This document shows positions 22,767 to 36,828 of a DNA stretch of 64,000 bases, one piece after another. The stretch is taken from NCBI GenBank assembly GCA_004296775.1, contig RHGE01000009.1:42474-106473 (forward strand), read 5' to 3'. How positions within the stretch are numbered: the stretch's first letter is position 1; each line of letters opens with the position of its first letter. The position numbers and the translations under genes were made by a program. The DNA comes from Marinilabiliaceae bacterium JC017. Its GTDB lineage: Bacteria > Bacteroidota > Bacteroidia > Bacteroidales > Marinilabiliaceae. The notes below the pieces were generated by a model. The model had not been told where the DNA came from. It was given only the letters and a program-made list of their open reading frames with translations, and did not search any database.

Positions 22767-22797
22767 TTTGGATTTAATTTTTTTCCGTCTACATTTG
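22767..22797 (+). promoter_or_regulatory. Promoter of the ilv-leu operon
   Basis: TTTG (22767-22770), 19-nt spacer, TACATTTG (22790-22797): an exact Bacteroidota consensus. Predicted transcription start about 22803, roughly 25 nt before the leader peptide ATG. Confidence 0.85.
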
Positions 22798-22827
22798 CTT
22801 CCGTCAAAAGAACAAACAAGACATACA

Positions 22828-22908
22828 ATGAAATTTAACTTATCACTCATTCTCATTATTATTATTATTCTCGTGGTCAAGCCAGGGAGGAGTGAGATTG
22901 TCGTATAA
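22828..22908 (+). CDS. Branched-chain amino acid leader peptide (attenuator)
   Basis: A 26-codon reading frame: ATG at 22828, stop TAA at 22906-22908. Residues 5-17 are LSLILIIIIILVV, so 11 of these 13 codons specify Leu, Ile or Val, including five consecutive Ile codons; Ile-Val-Val ends it. Such composition directly before ilvD, with a terminator downstream, marks a regulatory leader rather than a functional peptide. Ribosome stalling at these codons when charged tRNA-Ile/Leu/Val is scarce would expose 22889-22897 and favour the antiterminator. Confidence 0.88.
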   Translation: MKFNLSLILIIIIILVVKPGRSEIVV

Positions 22909-22948
22909 GTTACTGAACACAAAATAGTAAAAAGGCTTTTCTCACTCC
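22889..22948 (+). promoter_or_regulatory. Antiterminator pairing of the ilv attenuator
   Basis: ggagtgaga (22889-22897), inside the leader coding region, is perfectly complementary to tctcactcc (22940-22948), which forms part of the terminator's 5' arm and loop. A ribosome at the leader stop codon would cover the first element; one stalled in the Ile run would not. Confidence 0.82.
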
Positions 22949-22970
22949 ACTGAGAAAAGCCTTTTTTTTT
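22931..22970 (+). terminator. Attenuator terminator before ilvD
   Basis: Perfect 14-bp stem 22931-22944 / 22951-22964, 6-nt loop, then T residues to 22970. It sits 31 bp upstream of the ilvD start. Confidence 0.93.
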
Positions 22971-23000: not shown

Positions 23001-24830
23001 ATGAAAAAACAACTTAGAAGCGCAACCACCACAGAAGGCCGCAGAATGGCCGGAGCCAGAAGCCTTTGGAGAGCCAATGGCATGCAAGAGTCACATTTTG
23101 GCAAGCCGGTGATTGCGGTGGTCAACTCATTTACACAGTTTGTTCCCGGGCATACCCACTTGCATGAGATCGGACAACACGTGAAACAAATGATTGAAGC
23201 CAGAGGTTGTTTCGCCGCCGAGTTTAACACCATTGCCATCGACGATGGAATAGCCATGGGACACGATGGCATGTTGTACTCCCTGCCATCCCGCGATGTC
23301 ATTGCGGACAGCGTGGAATACATGGTAAACGCCCATAAAGCCGATGCCATGATCTGCATCAGCAACTGCGACAAGATCACGCCAGGTATGTTGATGGCTG
23401 CCATGCGTTTGAATATCCCAACCGTTTTTGTATCAGGAGGCCCCATGGAAGCAGGTAAATCAGGTGAAAAAAGCCTGGACCTGGTAGATGCCATGGTAAT
23501 GGCTGCTGATGAATCCGTTTCGGATAGCGAGGTGGAAGAAGTAGAACGCAATGCCTGTCCCACTTGCGGATCGTGTTCGGGCATGTTTACCGCCAACTCC
23601 ATGAACTGTTTGAACGAAGCCATCGGACTGGCACTGCCGGGAAATGGCACCATCGTGGCTACCCATACTAATCGCCGGCAACTATTTGAAAAAGCCGCCA
23701 ACCTCATCATTGATAACACCAATCGCTATTACGGCGAAGGAGACACATCGGTGCTGCCCCGGTCCATCGCCACCAGGCAGGCTTTCTTGAATGCCATGAC
23801 CCTGGACATTGCCATGGGCGGTTCTTCCAACACCGTATTGCACCTTTTGGCCATCGCTCATGAAGCCGGTGTTGATTTCAACATGAAAGACATTGATCAG
23901 CTATCACGCCAAACACCGGTTTTGTGCAAGGTAGCTCCCAATTCCCATTACCACATTGAAGATGTTAACCGCGCCGGTGGAATACTGGGAATATTGGGAG
24001 AGTTGGAGAAACACGGCCTGGTAGATGGTTCCGTGAAACGAATTGATTACAGCTCTCTAAAAGAAGCCATGGATGCTTATAACATCCTAAAATCCTCCCC
24101 ATCACCTGAGGCTCAGGAAGTATACTCCAGTGCACCGGCCGGTCTGTTCAACCTGAAACTAGGCTCCCAAAAAGCACAGTACAGTGAATTGGACACCGAC
24201 CGTGAAAAAGGGTGCATCCGTAGTGTTGAACATGCCTATTTCAAAGATGGCGGATTAGCCATTCTTTTTGGGAACATTGCCCAAAATGGTTGCATTGTTA
24301 AAACAGCAGGGGTGGATCCATCCATATTCACCTTCAATGGAAGCGCCCGTGTTTATGAATCACAGGACGCAGCCATGGAAGGCATCCTGGATGGCCAGGT
24401 ACAAGCAGGGGATGTGGTAATCATTCGCTACGAAGGCCCCAAAGGCGGACCGGGCATGCAGGAAATGCTCTACCCCACCTCTTACCTTAAGTCCAGACAC
24501 TTGGGGACAAAATGTGCGTTACTGACCGATGGCCGTTTTTCCGGTGGTACATCAGGCCTGTCCATCGGACACGTTTCACCTGAAGCGGCGGCAGGCGGCA
24601 CCATTGGACTGGTAAAAGACGGTGATCGCATCGAGATAAATATTCCGGAGAGAAAAATCGAACTGTGTGTCTCTCCCGAAGAACTAACTCGCCGGCACCA
24701 GGCTGAAATGGCCAAAGGAGCAGAGGCCTTTAAGCCCGCAAGCAGAAACCGTAATGTATCAAAAGCCCTGAAAGCATATGCCCAACTGGTAAGTTCAGCA
24801 GATCAGGGAGCCATTAGAATAATTGATTAA
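23001..24830 (+). CDS. ilvD: Dihydroxy-acid dehydratase
   Basis: Dehydrates 2,3-dihydroxy-isovalerate and -3-methylvalerate to the 2-oxo acids of valine and isoleucine. The 609 residues carry the Fe-S and Mg2+ site cysteines in [12 protein letters not shown] and [18 protein letters not shown], the substrate segment [10 protein letters not shown], and the C-terminal [23 protein letters not shown]. The first gene of the operon, controlled by the attenuator just upstream. ilvB follows after 26 bp. Confidence 0.98.
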
Positions 24831-24856: not shown

Positions 24857-26590
24857 ATGGAAACATTAACCAAAGAAACCAAACAGATGGAAAAAAGAAA
24901 GACAACCAGGTTGTCCGGATCGGAGGCCGTTATCCAATCATTGCTTCATGAAGGCGTGGACTTGATTTTCGGATATCCCGGTGGCGCCATCATGCCTATC
25001 TATGATGCCTTGTATGACTACCATGAGCAACTGCATCATGTATTGGTTCGTCATGAGCAGGGAGCCACCCATGCTGCCCAGGGGTATGCCAGGGTAACAA
25101 GCAAAGTAGGTGTTTGCTTTGTGACCTCCGGCCCCGGAGCTACCAATGCGGTAACCGGCATTGCCGATGCCATGATAGACTCCACACCTTTGGTTGTCAT
25201 CAGCGGCCAGGTTACTTCACCATTATTGGGAACAGATGCTTTCCAGGAAACAGATGTGGTAAGTATTACCAAACCCATTACCAAATGGAACTACCAGGTA
25301 ACACATGCGGAAGAAATTCCTGAAGCCATTGCCAAAGCGTTCTACATTGCACGATCAGGGCGACCGGGTCCGGTAGTTATAGACATCACCAAAGATGCGC
25401 AGTTTGGCCAGTTGGATTTTTCCTATTCACCAATCAAACACATCAGAAGTTATACGCCTGTTCCAAAAGTCAACCCTGATAACATTGAAGAAGCAGCCCG
25501 GCTTATAAACCTGTCGAAAAAACCGATGGCCCTGATCGGCCAGGGGGTTATCCTGGGAAAGGCTGAAAAAGAATTGGTAGCCTTCCTGGAGAAATCAGGC
25601 ATGCCCGCCGCCTGGACTTTACTGGGCTTATCGGCTTTACCCTCTGACCATCCTCAAAATGTAGGAATGCTGGGAATGCATGGTCATTACGGCCCAAATG
25701 TTAAAACCAACGAGGCAGATTTGATCGTCGCCATCGGCATGCGTTTCGACGACCGGGTTACCGGAGATGTTAATAAATATGCCCTCAATGCCAAGGTGGT
25801 TCACCTGGAGATAGACCCGGCAGAGATCAATAAAATCATCTACGCTGACGTACCGGTATTGGGCGATGTAAAAGAATCATTACCACTACTTACTGAGAAG
25901 GTAACCAGTAATTCACACCAGGAATGGCTGAATGAATTCAATGCGTGTTACAAAATTGAGCACCAAAAGATCATCAACAAAGAGATCAATCCCATCAAAG
26001 AAAAAATGACGATGGGAGAAGTTATTAACAAGGTATCCGGCGTTTATAATGATGACTCTATAATGGTAACGGACGTGGGACAGCAACAAATGATGGCCGC
26101 CAGGTATTTCAAGTTCAAACAATCCCGCAGCGTGGTAACATCCGGTGGGTTAGGCACCATGGGATTTGGCATTCCGGCAGCCATCGGAGCTGCCATGGGA
26201 CAACCCGACCGACCGGTATGCCTGTTCGTTGGAGATGGTGGATTCCAGATGACCATTCAGGAGTTAGGAACCATTTCTCAGACCAAGGCACCGGTAAAGA
26301 TGGTGTTGTTGAATAATAGTTTCCTGGGAATGGTGAGACAATGGCAAGAGCTATTCTTTGATAAGCGCTATGCTTCCACCGAATTGACAAATCCCGATTT
26401 TCAAACCATTGCCAAAGGATATGGCATTTCCGGCGAAAAAGTAACGGCACGGGAAAATCTGGATGAAGCCATCGAACGCATGAAACAACATCAAGGAGCT
26501 TATTTACTGGAAGTGGCAGTTGAAAAGGAAGGAAATGTATTCCCTATGGTACAGGCAGGTGCTTCTGTATCGGATATCCGTCTGGAGTAA
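24857..26590 (+). CDS. ilvB: Acetolactate synthase large subunit
   Basis: ThDP-, FAD- and Mg2+-dependent catalytic subunit making 2-acetolactate from pyruvate and 2-aceto-2-hydroxybutyrate from pyruvate plus 2-oxobutanoate. The 577 residues show the catalytic Glu in VRHEQGATHAAQGYAR, the FAD region (PQNVGMLGMHGHYG...RFDDRVTGD) and the ThDP motif starting GDGGFQMTIQEL and ending LLNN. The first ~18 residues are a variable, charged extension; an internal ATG at 24887 is an alternative start. ilvN follows after 30 bp. Confidence 0.98.
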   Translation: METLTKETKQMEKRKTTRLSGSEAVIQSLLHEGVDLIFGYPGGAIMPIYDALYDYHEQLHHVLVRHEQGATHAAQGYARVTSKVGVCFVTSGPGATNAVTGIADAMIDSTPLVVISGQVTSPLLGTDAFQETDVVSITKPITKWNYQVTHAEEIPEAIAKAFYIARSGRPGPVVIDITKDAQFGQLDFSYSPIKHIRSYTPVPKVNPDNIEEAARLINLSKKPMALIGQGVILGKAEKELVAFLEKSGMPAAWTLLGLSALPSDHPQNVGMLGMHGHYGPNVKTNEADLIVAIGMRFDDRVTGDVNKYALNAKVVHLEIDPAEINKIIYADVPVLGDVKESLPLLTEKVTSNSHQEWLNEFNACYKIEHQKIINKEINPIKEKMTMGEVINKVSGVYNDDSIMVTDVGQQQMMAARYFKFKQSRSVVTSGGLGTMGFGIPAAIGAAMGQPDRPVCLFVGDGGFQMTIQELGTISQTKAPVKMVLLNNSFLGMVRQWQELFFDKRYASTELTNPDFQTIAKGYGISGEKVTARENLDEAIERMKQHQGAYLLEVAVEKEGNVFPMVQAGASVSDIRLE

Positions 26591-26620
26591 TAAGGCATAT
26601 CAAACTAAAACTTGAATAAG

Positions 26621-27166
26621 ATGATCAATCAGGAATTTACATTATCCATATACTCAGAAAACCATGTGGGGCTACTCAATCAGATTACCACGATATTTAT
26701 TCGCCGGCACATTAATATTGAAAGCCTCACCACCTCTGAGTCTGCCATTGAGGGTATTCACAAATTTACCATCATCGTGAACACCACACGGGAGCAGGTT
26801 GAAAAGCTCCGCCAACAAATTGACAAACGCGTAGATGTGATCAAGGCCTTTGTGTTCACCAACGATGAAGTTATCCACCAGGAGATAGCACTCTATAAAG
26901 TCCCTACCGAAGCGCTGCTCAACAGCAATGAGATTGAACGGTTGGTGAGAGAGTATGGAGCCCGGATACTGGAAATCACATCGGAATACACCGTCATTGA
27001 GAAGACGGGGCACAAATTTGAGACACAGGAACTATTTGAAAAACTAGACCGTTTTGGCGTCTCGCAATTTGTCCGTTCAGGACGTGTCGCTGTCACCAAG
27101 CTGAGTAAAGAATTACTCACAAACTATTTGAAGAAACTAGATAAAGAAGAAACCATATTAGACTAA
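26621..27166 (+). CDS. ilvN: Acetolactate synthase regulatory small subunit
   Basis: Regulatory partner of IlvB that raises its activity and mediates feedback inhibition by valine. From ATG 26621 the 181 residues have an N-terminal ACT domain (FTLSIYSENHVGLLNQITTIFIRRHINIESLT, the amino-acid binding loop region) and a C-terminal ALS_ss domain (ARILEITSEYTVIEKTGHKFETQELFEKLDRFGVSQFVRSGRVAV). A TTG at 26612 in frame is a less likely start. ilvC follows after 19 bp. Confidence 0.96.
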   Translation: MINQEFTLSIYSENHVGLLNQITTIFIRRHINIESLTTSESAIEGIHKFTIIVNTTREQVEKLRQQIDKRVDVIKAFVFTNDEVIHQEIALYKVPTEALLNSNEIERLVREYGARILEITSEYTVIEKTGHKFETQELFEKLDRFGVSQFVRSGRVAVTKLSKELLTNYLKKLDKEETILD

Positions 27167-27185: not shown

Positions 27186-28232
27186 ATGGCAAAAATTAAT
27201 TTCGGAGGAACAGAAGAAAATGTTGTTACACGGGAAGAATTCCCATTGAGTAAAGCACTTGATACCTTAAAAGAAGAAACCATTGCAATCATTGGCTATG
27301 GCGTACAAGGCCCCGGTCAATCCCTTAACCTGAAAGACAATGGTTTCAACGTTATCGTTGGTCAAAGAAAAAACAGTAAGAGTTGGGACAAAGCAGTAGC
27401 AGACGGCTGGGTTCCGGGCGAAACACTATTTGAAATTGAAGAAGCACTGGAAAGAGGCACCATCATTCAATACTTATTGTCAGATGCCGGACAGATTGCT
27501 GTATGGCCAACGGTTAAAAAACACCTGACACCGGGTAAAGCACTTTATTTCTCTCACGGTTTTGGTGTGACATATAAAGAACGTACTGACATTGTACCAC
27601 CTGCTGATGTGGATGTGATTCTTGTAGCCCCCAAAGGTTCAGGTACCAGCCTGCGTCGTATGTTCCTGGAAGGTCGCGGATTGAATTCAAGTTATGCCAT
27701 CTTCCAGGATGCTACCGGCAGAGCCTATGACCGTGTTATCGCATTGGGTATTGGCGTTGGTTCTGGTTACCTGTTCGAAACAACTTTCAAACGTGAGGTA
27801 TACAGTGACCTTACCGGAGAACGTGGAACACTTATGGGAGCTATCCAGGGAATCTTTGCTGCCCAGTATGAAGTATTGCGTGCCAACGGCCACTCTCCTT
27901 CGGAAGCTTTCAATGAAACAGTGGAAGAACTAACGCAAAGCCTGATGCCGCTTGTAGCTGAAAATGGAATGGACTGGATGTATGCCAACTGTTCAACAAC
28001 AGCTCAACGTGGTGCTTTGGACTGGTGGAAGAAATTCCGTGATGCCTCTAAACCGGTATTCGAAGACTTATATAGCGAAGTAGCCAAAGGAAACGAGGCG
28101 CAGCGATCTATTGATTCCAACAGCCAGGACGACTACCGGGTGAAATTGGAAGAGGAGTTGAAAGAATTACGTGAATCGGAAATGTGGCAAGCAGGAGCAG
28201 CAGTCCGCAAATTACGTCCTGAAAACAACTAA
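27186..28232 (+). CDS. ilvC: Ketol-acid reductoisomerase
   Basis: NADPH- and Mg2+-dependent isomerisation and reduction of acetohydroxy acids. The Rossmann motif is IAIIGYGVQGPGQSLNLKDNG, and the basic/serine loop GQRKNSKSWDKA is consistent with NADPH. The C-terminal knotted domain has the metal-binding DLTGERGTLMG and E-rich helices. At 348 residues it is close to the short class I form but has small insertions typical of Bacteroidota. It is the last gene before a 309-bp spacer preceding leuA. Confidence 0.97.
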   Translation: MAKINFGGTEENVVTREEFPLSKALDTLKEETIAIIGYGVQGPGQSLNLKDNGFNVIVGQRKNSKSWDKAVADGWVPGETLFEIEEALERGTIIQYLLSDAGQIAVWPTVKKHLTPGKALYFSHGFGVTYKERTDIVPPADVDVILVAPKGSGTSLRRMFLEGRGLNSSYAIFQDATGRAYDRVIALGIGVGSGYLFETTFKREVYSDLTGERGTLMGAIQGIFAAQYEVLRANGHSPSEAFNETVEELTQSLMPLVAENGMDWMYANCSTTAQRGALDWWKKFRDASKPVFEDLYSEVAKGNEAQRSIDSNSQDDYRVKLEEELKELRESEMWQAGAAVRKLRPENN

Positions 28233-28541
28233 TCAAATCAATTGAGGATGTCCGAAAATATCATTCCGCGCAACATCCGCTAAGTTTTTCACAAAACAAA
28301 CCACCTGTTGCGCAGGAGCGATTCCTTTTTTTTTGGACAACCTCTTTTACTACAATAGTTCGTTAAACTTTTGTAATTACCTGAAAGACCGTTTGCGATT
28401 ATTTGACAGCCATAATTTTTATAGCTCTTAGAACAAGCTTCAAGCAATCCATGGTCTGTTATCTGAAATCTAACGTTCTATTATTACCAGATGCTTGCCG
28501 CAAAAGGGGAAATGGGACAAGCATCATTAAAAACAAAATGC
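28233..28541 (+). other. Spacer between ilvC and leuA
   Basis: It contains gcgcaaca (28268-28275) and tgttgcgc (28306-28313), a perfect 8-bp inverted repeat followed 13 nt later by a T run (28324-28334): a possible weak terminator or processing site. A TTAGAT-type repeat lies at 28451-28485. No consensus promoter was found, so leuA may be served by readthrough from ilvC. Confidence 0.4.
28451..28485 (-). repeat. TTAGAT-type dispersed repeat (inverted copy)
   Basis: ctgttatctgaaatctaacgttcta is the reverse complement of the tagatcgttagattttagataacag core seen at 35281 and 40712. Confidence 0.65.
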
Positions 28542-30038
28542 ATGAGTAATAAAGTATATATCTTCGATACCACTTTGCGAGATGGAGAGCAAGTGCCGGG
28601 TTGTCAGTTAAACACAATTGAAAAGATTGAAGTAGCTCGCCAGCTCGAAAAGCTTGGCGTAGATATTATTGAAGCCGGATTCCCCATCTCAAGCCCCGGA
28701 GATTTCAATTCAGTGGTTGAAATTTCCAAAGCCGTAACCAATCCAACTATCTGTGCACTTACCCGTGCTGTTAAAAAAGATATTGAAGTAGCAGCCGATG
28801 CGCTTAAGTTTGCCAAACGTGGTCGTATCCACACCGGCATCGGAACTTCTTATTATCACATCACATCGAAATTAAACTCCAACCCGGACGAAATCATTGA
28901 ACGGGCCATCGAGGCAGTCAAATATGCCCGCCGCTTTGTGGAGGACGTGGAATTTTATGCAGAAGATGCCGGCCGAACGGAAAACGAATACCTGGCACGT
29001 GTGGTAGAGGCTGCCATCAAAGCCGGCGCTACCGTCATTAACATTCCCGATACAACGGGCTATTGCCTGCCGGGCGAATATGGCGAGAAAATCGCCTACC
29101 TGATGAACCACGTGCCTAACGTGGATAAGGCCATCATCTCCACCCACTGTCACAACGACTTGGGCATGGCTACGGCCAATACCTTGTCGGGTGTAATTAA
29201 CGGAGCCCGCCAGGTGGAAGTGACCATCAACGGACTGGGCGAACGTGCCGGAAACACATCCCTGGAAGAAGTTGTGATGGCCATGAAGAGCCATAAAGAC
29301 CTGGATTTTGAAACAGGCATCGACGCCAAGCAGATTATCAAATCCAGCAAATTGGTTTCCACCCTGATGCGCATGCCGGTTCAGGCCAACAAGGCCATCG
29401 TAGGCCGCAACGCCTTTTCACACTCTTCCGGTATTCACCAGGACGGGGTATTAAAAAACAGGGAAAACTACGAAATCATTGACCCGGCAGATGTGGGTGT
29501 CAAGGAATCAAGTATCGTATTGACAGCCCGAAGCGGACGCGCAGCCTTGAAACACCGATTGCAGGTATTAGGCTACAACTACGAAGGAGCTGAGCTTGAC
29601 AACATCTATCAAAAATTCCTGGCCCTGGCAGATAAAAAGAAAGACATCTCCGATGAGGATCTGGATATCTTGATTGATTCAGAACAGGAGAAAGAGGACC
29701 GTTCCATCAGATTGGAATCGCTTCAGGTGATCTGCGGCAAGTCTACCATACCAACGGCTACTGTTGCTGTAAACTTCAGCGGTGATGTATTTACTGAAAC
29801 GGCTTCCGGAAATGGCCCCATTGATGCTGCCTTCTCCGCGGTAAAAAACCTGATGAAACGGAAAGTACACCTGGAGGAATTTCTCATTCAGGCCATTACC
29901 CGAGGAAGTGATGACTTGGGGAAAGTACATGTACAGGTGGAGCATAAAGGCCAAACCTATTATGGTTTTGCAGCAAATGTTGACATCGTATCAGCCTCAG
30001 TAGAATCGTTCATTGACGCCATCGCTAAAATCGGATAA
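28542..30038 (+). CDS. leuA: 2-isopropylmalate synthase
   Basis: Condenses acetyl-CoA with 2-oxoisovalerate, the committed step to leucine. From ATG 28542 the 498 residues start at [22 protein letters not shown], the HMGL-like TIM barrel with divalent-metal ligands (Asp of DTTLRDGEQ and the HCHND motif in [15 protein letters not shown]), then [17 protein letters not shown], a linker, and the C-terminal LeuA allosteric dimerisation domain that binds leucine (from about 395). An in-frame ATG at 28491 would add 17 residues lacking family similarity. leuC begins 30 bp later. Confidence 0.96.
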
Positions 30039-30068: not shown

Positions 30069-31469
30069 TTGGCAGGAAAAACACTTTTTGACAAGATATG
30101 GGATGCACATGTGGTGTCATCGGTTGAAGACGGCCCCAGCATCCTTTACATTGACCGTCACTTCATCCACGAAGTAACCAGTCCACAAGCCTTTGCGGGC
30201 CTTAAAGAAAGAGGCGCCAAAGTTCTCAGGCCCGAAAAAGTGGTGGCTACACCCGACCATAACATACCCACCAAGGACCAGCACCTGACTATTCAGGATG
30301 AATTGTCACGGATGCAATTGGAGACGTTGAAAAACAATTGTGAGGAGAACAACATTACCATGTATGGGATTAATCACCCTAACAATGGCATTGTGCATGT
30401 GGTAGGTCCTGAGTTGGGAATTACACAACCGGGCATGACCATTGTATGCGGCGACAGTCATACTTCCACCCATGGTGCCTTTGGCAGTATTGCCTTTGGT
30501 ATCGGAACCAGTGAAGTGGAAATGGTACTGGCCAATCAGTGTGTGCTTCAGCCCAAACCCAAACGGATGCGCATTAATGTGGAAGGAAGCCTGAATACCG
30601 GCACTACTTCAAAAGACATCATCCTTTACATCGTGTCCAAATTGACCACCGGAGGCGGAACCGGCTACTTCATCGAATTTGCAGGATCAGCCATCAGCGA
30701 CCTGTCCATGGAAGCCCGGATGACCATCTGTAACATGAGCATTGAAATGGGTGCACGCGGCGGTATGATTGCGCCGGATGAAACCACCTTTGAATACATT
30801 AAAGGAAGAGAATTTGCACCCCAGGGAGAAAAATGGGACGAAGCAGTAATCTACTGGAAATCCCTGTGTTCTGATGACGATGCAGTCTTCGACAAAGAGC
30901 TTCATTTTGACGCCGCCGATATTGAACCCATGATCACCTATGGCACCAACCCGGGTATGGGAGCTAAAATTGTGAGCCATATCCCAACCCTGGACAAGAT
31001 TGATGAGTCTTCCAAAGCGTCATTCCTGAAGTCCATGGAATACATGGGATTTGAGCCCGGTGATGCCCTGGAAGGTAAAAGCATCGATTATGTATTTGTG
31101 GGCAGTTGTACCAATGGACGCATCGAAGACCTGCGAGCCTTTGCCTCATTTGTGAAAGGACATAAAAAAGCCGACAGCGTGGTGGCCTGGATTGTACCTG
31201 GCAGTAAGCAAGTTGAAAAACAAGCGATCAAAGAAGGCATTAAAGACATTCTGGAAGAAGCCGGCTTTGAGTTGCGCCAGCCCGGGTGTTCAGCCTGCCT
31301 GGCCATGAACGATGATAAGATCCCGGCCGGGAAATATTCCGTCTCCACGTCCAACCGGAACTTTGAAGGACGCCAGGGACCGGGTGCCCGCACTTTACTG
31401 GCCAGCCCGGCTACAGCAGCTGCTGCAGCCATCACCGGTAAAATTACGGATCCCCGTGCCTTTCAATAG
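30069..31469 (+). CDS. leuC: 3-isopropylmalate dehydratase large subunit (TTG start)
   Basis: With LeuD forms the aconitase-type isomerase converting 2- to 3-isopropylmalate. The 466 residues carry the 4Fe-4S ligands in [12 protein letters not shown] and [10 protein letters not shown], plus [24 protein letters not shown]. The conserved N-terminus ([13 protein letters not shown]) begins immediately after a TTG codon at 30069, preceded by a purine-rich aaaaagaagaaaa. No ATG is available upstream in frame that fits, so TTG is the likely initiator. Confidence 0.96.
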
Positions 31470-31601: not shown

Positions 31602-32201
31602 ATGCCCATAGATAAATTTAATACGCTAACCTCATCCGTGGTGCCATTACCCATTGAGAATGTGGATACCGATCAGATCATCCCGGCGCGTTTCCTGAAA
31701 GCCACCACCAAAGAGGGATTTGGGGACAACCTTTTTTTTGACTGGCGCTATGAGAAAAACAGCCAGCCGAAAACCGATTTCGTTCTTAACAACCCAACGT
31801 ATAAAGGAAGTATTCTTTTGGCCGGTAAGAACTTCGGCAGCGGCTCCAGCCGTGAGCATGCCGCGTGGTCGGTATATGGCTATGGCTTTAAGGTGGTCGT
31901 TTCCAGCTTTTTTGCCGACATATTTCGCAACAATGCCCTGAACAATGGATTATTGCCGGTACAGGTATCAGAAGCCTTCCTGAAAAAGTTATTCACCGCT
32001 GTTGATAACAATCCGGCAGCCGAAGTGAAAGTGGATCTTCAGGCACAAACCATCACCCTGGTAGCCACTAACGAAAGTGAATCCTTCGACATCAACGGCT
32101 ATAAAAAGAACTGCCTGTTGAACGGCTATGATGACATTGATTATCTGCTCAACAGGAGAAACGAAATAGAGGCTTATGAGAAAAAAGCCATCACCTTTTA
32201 A
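31602..32201 (+). CDS. leuD: 3-isopropylmalate dehydratase small subunit
   Basis: Swivelling-domain partner of LeuC. The 199 residues include [14 protein letters not shown] and the substrate-recognition loop [17 protein letters not shown], plus [17 protein letters not shown]. Length matches the ~200-residue bacterial form. It is separated from leuC by a 132-bp spacer holding a dispersed repeat, and from the next gene by a 345-bp spacer. Confidence 0.97.
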
Positions 32202-32546: not shown

Positions 32547-34079
32547 ATGAGAATAGAAATAATGGATACAACCCTGCGCGATGGGGAGCAAACCACCGGT
32601 GTTTCATTTAATGAAGCCGAAAAGTTGGCGATTGCCCGGATACTTCTGGAAGAGGTAAAGGTCAATCGCATCGAGGTGGCGTCTGCCCGTGTGTCGGAGG
32701 GGGAGTTCCGCTCTGTGCGAAAAATAACCGAATGGGCCGAAAAAAACGGCTACCTCAACCAGGTAGAAGTCCTGGGGTTTGTTGATGGCGAAGCATCCCT
32801 CAACTGGGTGCAGGAGGCAGGAGCCAAAGTACTAAACCTGCTGACCAAAGGATCATTGAAACATCTGAAAGGACAGTTAAAAAAAACACCGGCAGAGCAC
32901 ATCAATGACATTAAAGCCTTACTGGCAAAAGCCAACCGGATGGGAATCACCGTTAACCTTTACCTGGAAGACTGGTCAAACGGCATGCTTCACTCACCCG
33001 AATATGTTTTCTACCTGATGGATCACCTGTGCCAGACTTCCATTAAACGTTTCATGTTACCCGACACGCTGGGTATACTCAACCCGTTACAAACAAAAGA
33101 GTTTTGTTCGGCCATGGTAAAACGTTACCCGGAAGTGCATTTCGATTTCCATGCACACAATGATTATGACTTTGCAGTGGCCAATGTGTTTGCTGCCGCT
33201 TCAGCAGGAATCCAGGGCATACACACCACTGTTAACGGACTGGGCGAACGGGCCGGTAATGCGCCGTTATCGAGTGTATTGGGCGTTATCAACGATCACC
33301 TGGAGGGTGTTAATAACCTGGATGAATCAAAACTTACCCATATCTGCCGCATGGTGGAAACATTCTCTGGCATACGCATCCCGGCAAACAAACCATTAAC
33401 CGGTGAAAATGTATTTACCCAGTGCAGCGGGGTACATGCCGACGGCGATAACAAAGACAACCTGTACTTTAATAACCTGATGCCGGAACGTTTTGGGCGT
33501 GTGCGCAAATATGCCCTCGGAAAAACATCCGGCAAGGCCAACGTCCTTAAGAATTTGGAAGAACTGGGGATTGAACTGACAACCGAAGAGATGAAAAAGG
33601 TTACCAAACGGGTGATTGAGCTGGGGGATAAAAAAACAACCGTGACGGCCGAAGACCTTCCCTATATCATCTCGGATGTCCTGAGAAGTGCCTCCATTGG
33701 GGAACACATAAAAGTGAAAAACTACAGCCTTTCACTGACACAAGGCCTTAAACCGGTGGCCACCCTGAGCATACGCATCAATAAAGAGCTCTACCAGGAA
33801 ACGGCCATTGGTGACGGACAGTATGATGCCTTTATGAAGGCACTTTGGAAGATCTATGAAAAACTGGGTAAACCACATCCCCGCCTGGTGGACTACATGG
33901 TATCCATTCCACCGGGAGGTAAAACCGATGCCCTGGTAGAGGCTGTCATCAGCTGGATATACAAAGGCAACAAGTTTAAGACAAGGGGACTGGATGCCGA
34001 CCAAACCGAAGCAGCCATTAAAGCAACGGTGAAAATGCTCAACCTGATTGAAAACGAAGATTTAAAATTTAAGCAATAA
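32547..34079 (+). CDS. 2-isopropylmalate/citramalate synthase-family protein (LeuA paralogue)
   Basis: A second DRE-TIM metallolyase of 510 residues, with [49 protein letters not shown], and a C-terminal LeuA-type regulatory domain (GDGQYDAFMKALWKIY in the last third). It differs from LeuA at the metal/substrate motif (HAHND rather than HCHND) and is clearly divergent over its length. Position between leuD and leuB suggests a substrate close to pyruvate or 2-oxo acids; (R)-citramalate synthase activity, feeding 2-oxobutanoate to isoleucine via LeuCD/LeuB, is one possibility, a second isopropylmalate synthase another. The substrate cannot be decided from sequence alone. Confidence 0.85.
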   Translation: MRIEIMDTTLRDGEQTTGVSFNEAEKLAIARILLEEVKVNRIEVASARVSEGEFRSVRKITEWAEKNGYLNQVEVLGFVDGEASLNWVQEAGAKVLNLLTKGSLKHLKGQLKKTPAEHINDIKALLAKANRMGITVNLYLEDWSNGMLHSPEYVFYLMDHLCQTSIKRFMLPDTLGILNPLQTKEFCSAMVKRYPEVHFDFHAHNDYDFAVANVFAAASAGIQGIHTTVNGLGERAGNAPLSSVLGVINDHLEGVNNLDESKLTHICRMVETFSGIRIPANKPLTGENVFTQCSGVHADGDNKDNLYFNNLMPERFGRVRKYALGKTSGKANVLKNLEELGIELTTEEMKKVTKRVIELGDKKTTVTAEDLPYIISDVLRSASIGEHIKVKNYSLSLTQGLKPVATLSIRINKELYQETAIGDGQYDAFMKALWKIYEKLGKPHPRLVDYMVSIPPGGKTDALVEAVISWIYKGNKFKTRGLDADQTEAAIKATVKMLNLIENEDLKFKQ

Positions 34080-34133: not shown

Positions 34134-35204
34134 ATGAAACTAAATATTGCATTACTTCCCGGTGACGGAATCGGACCGGAAATCGTAGAACAAGCACAAA
34201 AAGTGGTCAATGCCATCAGTGAAAAATATGGTCATGAACCCCAATACACCAGCGCCCTGGTTGGTGCCTGCGCCATTGATGCCACCGGTAATCCTTATCC
34301 CGAAGCAACACATGAGATCTGTATGCAATCGGATGCCGTTTTATTTGGCGCCATTGGCGACCCGCGCTTCGACAATGACCCCAAAGCCAAAGTACGCCCG
34401 GAGCAAGGCTTGCTGGCCATGCGTCAAAAACTGGGGCTGTATGCCAACCTACGCCCGGTAAGTACTTTCAAATCACTGGCCCACAAATCACCCCTTAAAA
34501 CCGAACTGGTTGACGGAGCGGACTTCATGTGCATCCGTGAATTAACCGGCGGCATCTATTTTGGCCGGCCCCAGGGACGCTCTGAAGATGGTAATACGGC
34601 TTACGACAGCTGTGTATATACCCGCTCTGAAATTGAACGCATCGTGCGCCTGGGCTTCGAATACGCCCAAAAGCGTCGTAAGAAACTAACCGTAATTGAC
34701 AAAGCCAACGTATTGGCCACTTCGCGTTTGTGGCGCGAAACGGCCCAGGCACTGGCCCCTGAATACGCCGATGTGGAGGTGGAATACATGTTTGTGGACA
34801 ACGCCGCCATGCAGCTGATTCAGTGGCCCAAACGTTTTGATGTGATGGTGACCGAAAACATGTTTGGTGACATCCTTACCGATGAAGCCAGTGTCATCAC
34901 CGGCTCCCTGGGACTCTTGCCATCAGCTTCCATTGGTGTACACACCTCGGTATTTGAACCCATTCACGGTTCCTACCCGCAAGCCGCCGGTAAAAACATT
35001 GCCAATCCATTGGCCACCGTCCTGTCGGCAGCCATGATGTTTGAATATGCTTATGGCAAAATGGAAGAAGGCGCCCTCATTCGCGAAGCGGTGGAACAAT
35101 CCATTGAACAAAGCATTGTAACGGAAGACCTGGCAGAAGGGGGCAAAGCGTACACCACCTCCGAGGTAGGTGACTGGCTGGTTAACTATATCAACAAGAA
35201 ATAA
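34134..35204 (+). CDS. leuB: 3-isopropylmalate dehydrogenase
   Basis: NAD+-dependent oxidative decarboxylation of 3-isopropylmalate to 2-oxoisocaproate. The 356 residues show [14 protein letters not shown], the substrate loop with RPVSTFK and [11 protein letters not shown], the catalytic Tyr/Lys region ([24 protein letters not shown]), Mg2+-binding [21 protein letters not shown], and the NAD loop [20 protein letters not shown]. It lies 54 bp after the leuA paralogue and is followed by a strong hairpin. Confidence 0.97.
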
Positions 35205-35225: not shown

Positions 35226-35265
35226 AAACCTCACTTCTGCGTCGCCAGACAACGAAGTGAGGTTT
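35226..35265 (+). terminator. Hairpin after leuB
   Basis: Perfect 12-bp stem aaacctcacttc (35226-35237) / gaagtgaggttt (35254-35265) with a 16-nt loop. The tail is gtatata, not a T-run, so it may only partly terminate or may stabilise the upstream mRNA. Confidence 0.6.
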
Positions 35266-35467: not shown

Positions 35468-36760
35468 ATGGAAATAACCAACGAAGAAACGAAGACGGAT
35501 ACAGAGACGAAAGCCTATTTCCCCAACCTGAAAGACATCATTGCCGCCAAGCATACCCTTAACAGCATACTTGACACAACCCCTTTGATGCACAACCGCA
35601 ACCTGTCGGAAAAATATGGTGCCAACATCCACCTGAAGCGGGAAGACCTCCAGGTGGTACGGTCTTACAAAATCAGGGGTGCTTACAACAAAATTAAAAG
35701 CCTGTCCAAAGAACAACTGCAACGGGGCATTGTGTGTGCCAGCGCGGGAAACCACGCACAGGGCGTGGCCTACTCCTGCCAAAAACTCAACATCAAGGGT
35801 AAGATCTACATGCCGGCCACCACGCCACGCCAGAAGGTGAACCAGGTGAAGATGTTTGGGAAAGACCAGGTAGAGGTAATTCTCACCGGCGACACCTACG
35901 ATGCCGCCTACCATGAAGCCATCACTGAATGCCGCCAGTCAGGCACCACCTTTATTCATCCGTTTGATGATCCGCAGATTATAGAAGGCCAGGCAACCGT
36001 GGGCCTGGAAATATTGCAGGAGGCCAGTGCCCCTATTGATTATATCTTCGTGCCCATCGGCGGCGGCGGCCTGTTATCGGGCATTGGCAGCTATTTTAAA
36101 CAGATGAGCCCCGACACCAGGATCATTGGCGTGGAACCGGCCGGAGCCGCCGGCATGAAAGCATCCCTTCGGGCAGGAAACGTCATTGAACTGGATCAGA
36201 TTGACAAATTTGTTGATGGCGCCGCCGTGCAGCGGGTGGGTGACATCACCTTTAACATATGCCAAAAGGTATTGAGCGACCTGGTGTCGATCCCCGAAGG
36301 GAAAGTATGTACCAAAATCCTGGAACTCTATAACTACGATGCCATTGTGGTGGAACCGGCCGGTGCGTTGAGCATTGCTGCCCTGGATTATTACGCCGAA
36401 GAGATTAAGGGTAAAAACGTGGTGTGCATTGTCAGTGGCAGCAACAACGACATCACCCGTACCGAAGAGATTAAAGAGCGGAGCCTGCTGTTTGAAGGGT
36501 TAAAGCACTACTTTATCGTGCGCTTCCCCCAACGTGCCGGTGCCCTGCGTGACTTTGTGGACCAGGTGCTGGGCCCCGACGATGACATCACCCATTTTGA
36601 ATACAGCAAGAAAACCAGCCGGGAGAAAGGCCCTGCCATCATAGGCATTGAGCTGCAACACCCCGGCGATTTCGATGGATTCGTCACACGCATGAGCGAA
36701 AACGGCTTTAAATACGAATACATCAACGAAAAGCCCGATCTGTTTCAATACCTCATCTAA
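35468..36760 (+). CDS. ilvA: Threonine ammonia-lyase, biosynthetic
   Basis: PLP enzyme deaminating threonine to 2-oxobutanoate, the entry to isoleucine. The 430 residues have the PLP lysine in VRSYKIRGAYNK, the phosphate-binding GGGGLLSGIG, substrate-binding CASAGNHAQG, and one C-terminal ACT-like regulatory domain (from about 330, HYFIVRFPQRAGALRDFVDQVLG), so it is expected to be isoleucine-sensitive. A short acidic N-terminal extension (1-17) precedes the domain. It closes the branched-chain locus before a strong terminator. Confidence 0.96.
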   Translation: MEITNEETKTDTETKAYFPNLKDIIAAKHTLNSILDTTPLMHNRNLSEKYGANIHLKREDLQVVRSYKIRGAYNKIKSLSKEQLQRGIVCASAGNHAQGVAYSCQKLNIKGKIYMPATTPRQKVNQVKMFGKDQVEVILTGDTYDAAYHEAITECRQSGTTFIHPFDDPQIIEGQATVGLEILQEASAPIDYIFVPIGGGGLLSGIGSYFKQMSPDTRIIGVEPAGAAGMKASLRAGNVIELDQIDKFVDGAAVQRVGDITFNICQKVLSDLVSIPEGKVCTKILELYNYDAIVVEPAGALSIAALDYYAEEIKGKNVVCIVSGSNNDITRTEEIKERSLLFEGLKHYFIVRFPQRAGALRDFVDQVLGPDDDITHFEYSKKTSREKGPAIIGIELQHPGDFDGFVTRMSENGFKYEYINEKPDLFQYLI

Positions 36761-36792: not shown

Positions 36793-36828
36793 TACCCCTT
36801 GGTACTGCGACGCCAAGGGGTATTTTTC
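36793..36828 (+). terminator. Terminator of the branched-chain locus
   Basis: Perfect 10-bp stem taccccttgg (36793-36802) / ccaaggggta (36813-36822), then ttttt. Confidence 0.92.

Follow-up and report, generated by a model that had tools for sequence, protein, structure and literature searches.

We analyzed a 64,000-nucleotide stretch of contig RHGE01000009.1 from Marinilabiliaceae bacterium JC017, the whole of which is called the window here. In it, ten genes for the synthesis of isoleucine, leucine, and valine stand behind a short leader region, and the features of leader and genes are as follows.

22767..22797, + strand: Bacteroidota-type promoter, TTTG-N19-TACATTTG (exact sequence match to the strict pattern)
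22828..22908, + strand: leader open reading frame MKFNLSLILIIIIILVVKPGRSEIVV, with the Ile/Leu/Val run at codons 5-17 (read from the sequence)
22846..22853, + strand: candidate segment 1, for which pairing with the antiterminator strand is possible (covariation does not support it)
22889..22897, + strand: segment 2, the antiterminator strand GGAGTGAGA, within the leader frame (pairing and covariation)
22940..22948, + strand: segment 3, TCTCACTCC, which pairs with segment 2; 22940-22944 are common to the terminator 5' arm (pairing and covariation)
22929..22970, + strand: predicted intrinsic terminator, 16-bp stem 22929-22944 / 22951-22966 and T-tract 22962-22970 (folding and covariation)
23001..24830, + strand: ilvD, dihydroxy-acid dehydratase (NCBIfam above cut-off)
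24857..26590, + strand: ilvB, acetolactate synthase large subunit (TIGR00118 above cut-off)
26612..27166, + strand: ilvN/H, acetolactate synthase small subunit (TIGR00119 above cut-off)
27186..28232, + strand: ilvC, ketol-acid reductoisomerase (TIGR00465 above cut-off)
28491..30038, + strand: leuA, 2-isopropylmalate synthase (NCBIfam above cut-off)
30069..31469, + strand: leuC, isopropylmalate dehydratase large subunit (NCBIfam above cut-off)
31602..32201, + strand: leuD, isopropylmalate dehydratase small subunit (NCBIfam above cut-off)
32547..34079, + strand: citramalate/isopropylmalate synthase family (best model CimA NF042433, below its cut-off)
34134..35204, + strand: leuB, 3-isopropylmalate dehydrogenase (NCBIfam above cut-off)
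35468..36760, + strand: ilvA, threonine ammonia-lyase (NCBIfam above cut-off)

Nine of the ten genes have at least one NCBIfam model above cut-off. The strict promoter pattern does not occur anywhere within the cluster. The gaps between the ten genes, to which the terminator scan was confined, contain no T-run terminator either, and the first T-run terminator among the gaps has its T-run at 36823, after ilvA. We infer that the ten genes share a single transcript, and we keep to this wording because four of the intergenic gaps measure 132-345 nt. An inverted repeat without a T-tract (AAACCTCACTTC ... GAAGTGAGGTTT) lies at 35226-35265, after leuB, and resembles the antiterminator motif of relatives (GAAGTGAG). 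A search for tandem repeats around the operon found none, and the solved IlvD structures (15 sequences, of dihydroxy-acid dehydratases and a relative) have no bearing on the leader.

Much of the leader anatomy had been put forward in a preliminary description, and most of it stands. The consensus promoter placed at 22767-22797 is an exact instance of TTTG-N19-TACATTTG, which we take to be the Bacteroidota promoter consensus; the strict pattern, with a spacing of 17-23, has two + strand sites in the window, this being one of them. The 26-codon leader with five consecutive Ile codons is also present as described (ATG at 22828, TAA at 22906-22908, five ATT codons in a row), and the dense run of Ile, Leu, and Val codons is real, but its size needs correcting from 11 in 13 to 12 of the 13 codons at positions 5-17, 11 of which are consecutive (7-17). 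Upstream of the leader ATG, a Shine-Dalgarno-like motif is absent; Bacteroidota genes usually lack one.

The perfect pairing claimed between 22889-22897 and 22940-22948 is borne out by the complementarity of GGAGTGAGA and TCTCACTCC. The former begins 10 nt beyond the final codon of the run, inside the leader frame, and the latter is formed by the top of the terminator 5' arm and most of its loop. A terminator with a T-tail was likewise found, with a stem that by folding comprises 16 bp rather than the 14 bp originally given; the hairpin has a predicted energy of -21.0 kcal/mol and a z score of -6.9 relative to shuffles, whereas the z score of the entire leader region is -4.3. Taken alone, the antiterminator hairpin (2:3) is predicted at -18.9 kcal/mol and is thus of similar strength to the terminator (3:4), and segment 3 is transcribed earlier than segment 4. 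A DNA search of the same genome for a second copy of the leader returned only the leader itself and the reverse complement of its own hairpin.

Conservation, pairing, and spacing of the leader

We compared 127 regions upstream of ilvD, namely the window, the best 80 named loci among the matches listed, and 46 relatives, the latter coming from the 47 of 61 searched genomes (own genome included) that had ilvD at E ≤ 1e-100. The closest named locus among the matches listed was that of Saccharicrinis sp. UBA6048 (IlvD identity 81%), a genus of Bacteroidota, Marinilabiliales, in the NCBI taxonomy. With a leader defined as a short frame upstream of ilvD containing at least 8 Ile/Leu/Val in 10 residues, 77 of the 127 regions, window included, carried one. 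When groups were assigned from record titles, such a frame was present in 40 of 46 relatives (six being below the cut), 35 of 51 other named Bacteroidota (16 below it), one of ten Prevotella-like loci, and none of the 19 loci titled as other phyla; the Prevotella-like set was fixed after a first look at the results and includes L078 and L079, titled Bacteroidaceae, but omits L048 and L054, which are titled Prevotellaceae and bear a leader (with a terminator in L054). By title alone (Prevotella, Prevotellaceae, and Marseilla; n = 10), three loci reach 8/10, one of these with a terminator. Eight regions, three of them in the other-phyla group, had less than 350 nt upstream; in a chance control on regions of at least 350 nt, the frame occurred in 76 of 119 forward sequences, compared with 0 of 119 for the reverse complements and 12 of 595 for dinucleotide shuffles.

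Behind the leader, a terminator hairpin (≤ -9 kcal/mol) was found in 72 of 77 regions; among the five missed by the script, L010 (Bacteroides graminisolvens) does have this hairpin, but its T-tract falls below the length that the script required. Cultured relatives with the entire unit include Odoribacter laneus YIT 12061 (L061) and Phocaeicola faecalis FXJYN30E22 (L041). A strict promoter precedes the leader in 57 of the 77, at 45-75 nt from the ATG in 46 of these 57, and 20 leaders are without one. The sole Prevotella-like leader, L067, is without a terminator, and a leader-terminator pair upstream of ilvD is absent likewise from L068, L073, L075, L077, L078, L079, L081, and L082, and from L074 over the 195 nt available. 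It is possible that the Prevotella-like lineages have lost the leader-terminator pair, unlike most other Bacteroidales examined.

Beyond the order, the survey was keyed on ilvD only. A phylum-wide draw contained ilvD in 31 of 90 genomes, own included, and in five of the 29 other loci (L187, L191, L193, L194, and L198) a frame of density at least 7 has a hairpin downstream of it, at about -11 to -14 kcal/mol; none of the five is convincing as an attenuator. In a class draw, ilvD was present in 16 of 60 genomes, and of the 18 other loci, L209 (same order), L215, and L216 have a leader followed by a terminator, with L219 as a doubtful fourth case. In six of the 29 phylum-draw loci, picked by eye (L185, L192, L197, L198, L205, and L207), an Ile/Leu/Val-rich frame precedes a conserved hairpin, GGTCAATCCC / GGGATTGACC, that has no T-tract, sits about 200 nt upstream of ilvD, and displays compensatory changes in three of ten pairs. 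No Rfam model matches this hairpin, the two hits at E ≤ 1 falling elsewhere in these loci, which are possibly a translational or Rho-linked type of attenuator.

The antiterminator was assessed in 83 regions (frame density at least 7 plus a terminator) by comparing the best helix that the leader region can form with the terminator 5' arm against those from 60 shuffles of the region's own leader; p ≤ 0.05 was reached in 64 of the 83 and not reached in 19. For covariation, 76 of 82 distinct leaders were aligned with MAFFT on sequence only, without fitting to structure, the remainder (L016, L047, L056, L058, L120, and L124) having been excluded before counting as divergent by eye. RNAalifold on the gapped alignment of all 76 returned the terminator only, and on a 29-sequence subset it found the 2:3 helix plus a weak helix between early leader and antiterminator strand. 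Because the 2:3 helix emerged only in the subset, pairs were counted for the named structures. In the 2:3 helix, 84.0% of cells in the 76 sequences hold standard pairs, compared with 43-53% when the strands are slid, and 49 cells are changed on both sides, compared with 16.8 in shuffles; on four of five measures the helix lies above every one of the 500 shuffles, and on the fifth, the number of pairs changed on both sides, its value of 8 was reached by 51 of 500. The terminator is 87.2% paired, compared with 39-66% when slid, has double changes in 12 of 15 pairs, and exceeds 500 of 500 shuffles on all five measures. The alignment upstream of ilvD that the preliminary description had proposed as a check thus finds leader, terminator, and antiterminator conserved in most relatives, and it supports antiterminator and terminator as mutually exclusive helices that both covary.

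A 1:2 protector helix, in which the early leader would pair with the antiterminator strand, gave no covariation signal in the same alignment (67.3% paired, with 171 of 500 shuffles as high). Predicted occlusion of the antiterminator strand was 0.83 overall compared with 0.69 in shuffles, a modest excess, and in the window leader it was 0.86 compared with 0.91 in shuffled leaders. The classical protector hairpin is thus a candidate that covariation does not support and whose strand is occluded equally well by shuffled window leaders. Because the protector helix lacks a covariation signal, what the data support is a two-state 2:3 / 3:4 switch.

The stalling and masking geometry suggested previously for the window holds across genomes. 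In the 64 regions with a significant antiterminator, the median distance from the ATG to the start of the antiterminator strand is 61 nt, and the final Ile/Leu/Val codon precedes this strand by 9-11 nt in 42 regions (10 in the window), by 12-14 nt in 8, by 1-7 nt in 13, and by 154 nt in one outlier, these counts not being independent across genomes because the leader sequences are related. From codon -7 to codon -2 relative to the strand, the Ile/Leu/Val share is 0.95, 0.97, 0.87, 0.35, 0.15, and 0.04. The leading edge of the ribosome is placed 12-15 nt from the P site (PMC3641672), and by arithmetic from this value stalling at the last regulatory codon would put the front of the ribosome 7-10 nt beyond that codon, short of the strand in most cases; in the regions with a distance of 1-7 nt, a ribosome stalled at the end of the run would therefore reach into the strand. 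In 62 of 64 regions, half or more of the strand would lie under a ribosome at the stop codon.

Codon choice in the leaders differs from that in ilvD of the same 62 loci, with CTC at 35% compared with 15%, CTA at 17% compared with 3%, GTC at 43% compared with 13%, and ATT at 81% compared with 44%. Such bias is known for attenuation leaders and has been attributed to selective tRNA charging (PMC1183508); RNA pairing constraints could be part of its cause.

Leaders before hisG and trpE and leaders in series

Upstream of hisG in the same genome (G000:C255, L130:1214-1459), one predicted transcript contains, in order, leader, terminator, leader, terminator, and hisG. The two His leaders, MSNNTHHHHHFILLHG and MNNFHLHIHHHSYHSG, have their own predicted terminators of -18.1 and -16.4 kcal/mol; strict promoters occur upstream of the first leader only, and about 20 nt separate the first T-tract from the second ATG. 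The gene hisG was found in 50 of 61 genomes searched, and 49 upstream regions were used, with one weak partial hit omitted. At least one His-rich frame is present in 45 of the 49, compared with 2 of 49 on the reverse strand. A terminator accompanies 49 His units, and for 32 of these units the antiterminator reaches p ≤ 0.05. Two His units, each with a terminator, occur in six genomes, own included; L142, with two frames and one terminator, was excluded. In the five of these genomes that belong to the same family, the antiterminator is significant in 10 of 10 units, and in the sixth and more distant one, L135, in 0 of 2, with no strict promoter found.

Labilibaculum, Marinifilum, and a Marinifilaceae MAG (L047, L057, and L058) have serial ilv leaders, two per locus and each with a terminator, in the stretch of up to about 400 nt before ilvD; in these loci the antiterminator reaches p ≤ 0.05 in two of six units, both in L057. 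The same three loci have an inverted repeat (TTTGTCAACG or TTTGTCAGCG ... CGTTGACAAA) between promoter and first leader. Before trpE in the own genome (L227, -217 to -88), the Trp leader MNLISRNIWWWHHLYLSSGR has three consecutive Trp codons and a very strong predicted terminator of -30.0 kcal/mol.

Serial attenuators for the same amino acid look like a less familiar variant, and finding His and ilv leaders in series was less expected than the rest of this analysis; among the papers listed by a full-text search, covering open-licence papers only, no same-signal tandem leader-peptide attenuator was found. We hold the chances evenly balanced that ribosome-sensed attenuators, of which the present genome has ilv-leu, his, and trp examples, are a standing rule for amino-acid synthesis in Bacteroidales, with some of these bacteria carrying two full attenuators of the same amino-acid specificity per transcript as a series gate in which off-state leakages would multiply. 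If true, this would need close coupling of ribosome and polymerase in a phylum without Shine-Dalgarno initiation.

Proposed mechanism and comparison with known systems

In its layout, the stretch 22767-22970 corresponds to a leader-peptide transcription attenuator, and we consider it very probable that it controls the ilv-leu genes through the speed of the ribosome on Ile, Leu, and Val codons, an interpretation already offered in the preliminary description and supported, at the level of sequence, by the comparison across relatives. Transcription would start near 22804, and a ribosome would enter at the ATG at 22828. With Ile, Leu, and Val all plentiful, the ribosome would reach the stop codon and cover 22889-22897, upon which the hairpin at 22929-22966 would form and transcription would end in the T-tract near 22970. 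With any of the three scarce, the ribosome would stall within codons 5-17 and leave 22889-22897 free to pair with 22940-22948 before the terminator 3' arm exists, allowing read-through into ilvD and the following genes. We count in favor of this model that the His leaders before hisG and the Trp leader before trpE share the same plan, and against it that the window leader returns to Ile-Val-Val at codons 24-26, where a stall would mask the antiterminator strand and favor termination.

A strong terminator by itself would look identical to the one seen here, and the hairpin could then be nothing more than a terminator, or could mark where a short standing RNA ends, with the leader frame incidental and ilvD transcribed mainly from another promoter. 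We regard this as improbable, since the Ile/Leu/Val frame, the spacing, and the covarying antiterminator are all conserved and no other strict promoter lies from the terminator to ilvD. Slightly less credible is that the leader frame acts on translation of ilvD, by reinitiation or ribosome access, and not on termination: gene-proximal leader frames have been proposed to aid reinitiation (PMC4833913), and the loci whose Ile/Leu/Val-rich frame leads into a conserved hairpin lacking a T-tract suggest that a translational mode may therefore exist elsewhere in the phylum, but in the window 92 nt, including the T-tailed terminator, separate the leader stop codon from ilvD. Equally hard to credit is a translation-independent RNA sensor (riboswitch, T-box, or protein-bound attenuator) driving the terminator switch, for although two mutually exclusive hairpins fit any sensor, an Rfam scan of the window (leader families and T-box) gave no match at gathering score, no aptamer-like fold was seen, and conservation sits in coding content and ribosome-scale spacing.

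Leader-peptide attenuation is textbook biology, and the enterobacterial ilvGMEDA, ilvBN, and leu operons carry attenuators of this type; predicted cases in Bacteroidetes/Chlorobi are reportedly included in Vitreschak 2004. A leader-peptide attenuator needs a ribosome close behind RNA polymerase, and the element proposed here offers a compact natural test of whether ribosomes closely trail RNA polymerase in Bacteroidota. The attenuator reading also predicts how the ilvD-headed operon is regulated across many Bacteroidales, among them some whose records bear the titles Bacteroides and Phocaeicola. The analysis provides 76 aligned leader examples.

A literature search for leader-peptide transcription attenuation in Bacteroidota, covering open-licence papers only, found no paper on the subject. 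In the same phylum, the transcriptome of Flavobacterium psychrophilum is described as giving strong clues of leader-peptide attenuation upstream of amino-acid operons (PMC9723704); the passage concerned gives no operon name or test of the mechanism, and the text does not contain "ilv". Long 5' untranslated regions of Bacteroides thetaiotaomicron are reported to have short frames reminiscent of attenuation leader peptides, the example being BT_4401, and "ilv" is absent from the main text (PMC7366714). Corynebacterium ilvBNC has, as here, an upstream frame or attenuator before an ilv operon, but it belongs to another phylum and its operon starts with ilvB (PMC10272879, PMC11857589). For the tandem His and ilv leaders, and not for the window leader, the nearest described case that we found appears to be Salmonella mgtCBR, with two leader frames in series on a single transcript; these sense ATP and proline rather than one amino acid twice, and their stem-loops are unlike intrinsic terminators (PMC3641672).

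The mechanism is thus already known and was hinted at earlier in Bacteroidota, and the window element is a well-supported further case as judged from sequence. In general plan, with the Rfam scan of the window as the sequence comparison, it has in common with the enterobacterial ilvGMEDA, ilvBN, and leu attenuators an Ile/Leu/Val-rich leader frame, competing antiterminator and terminator, and a biosynthetic operon. It differs from them in that the 1:2 protector is unsupported, a Shine-Dalgarno motif is not seen, and one leader heads both ilv and leu genes.
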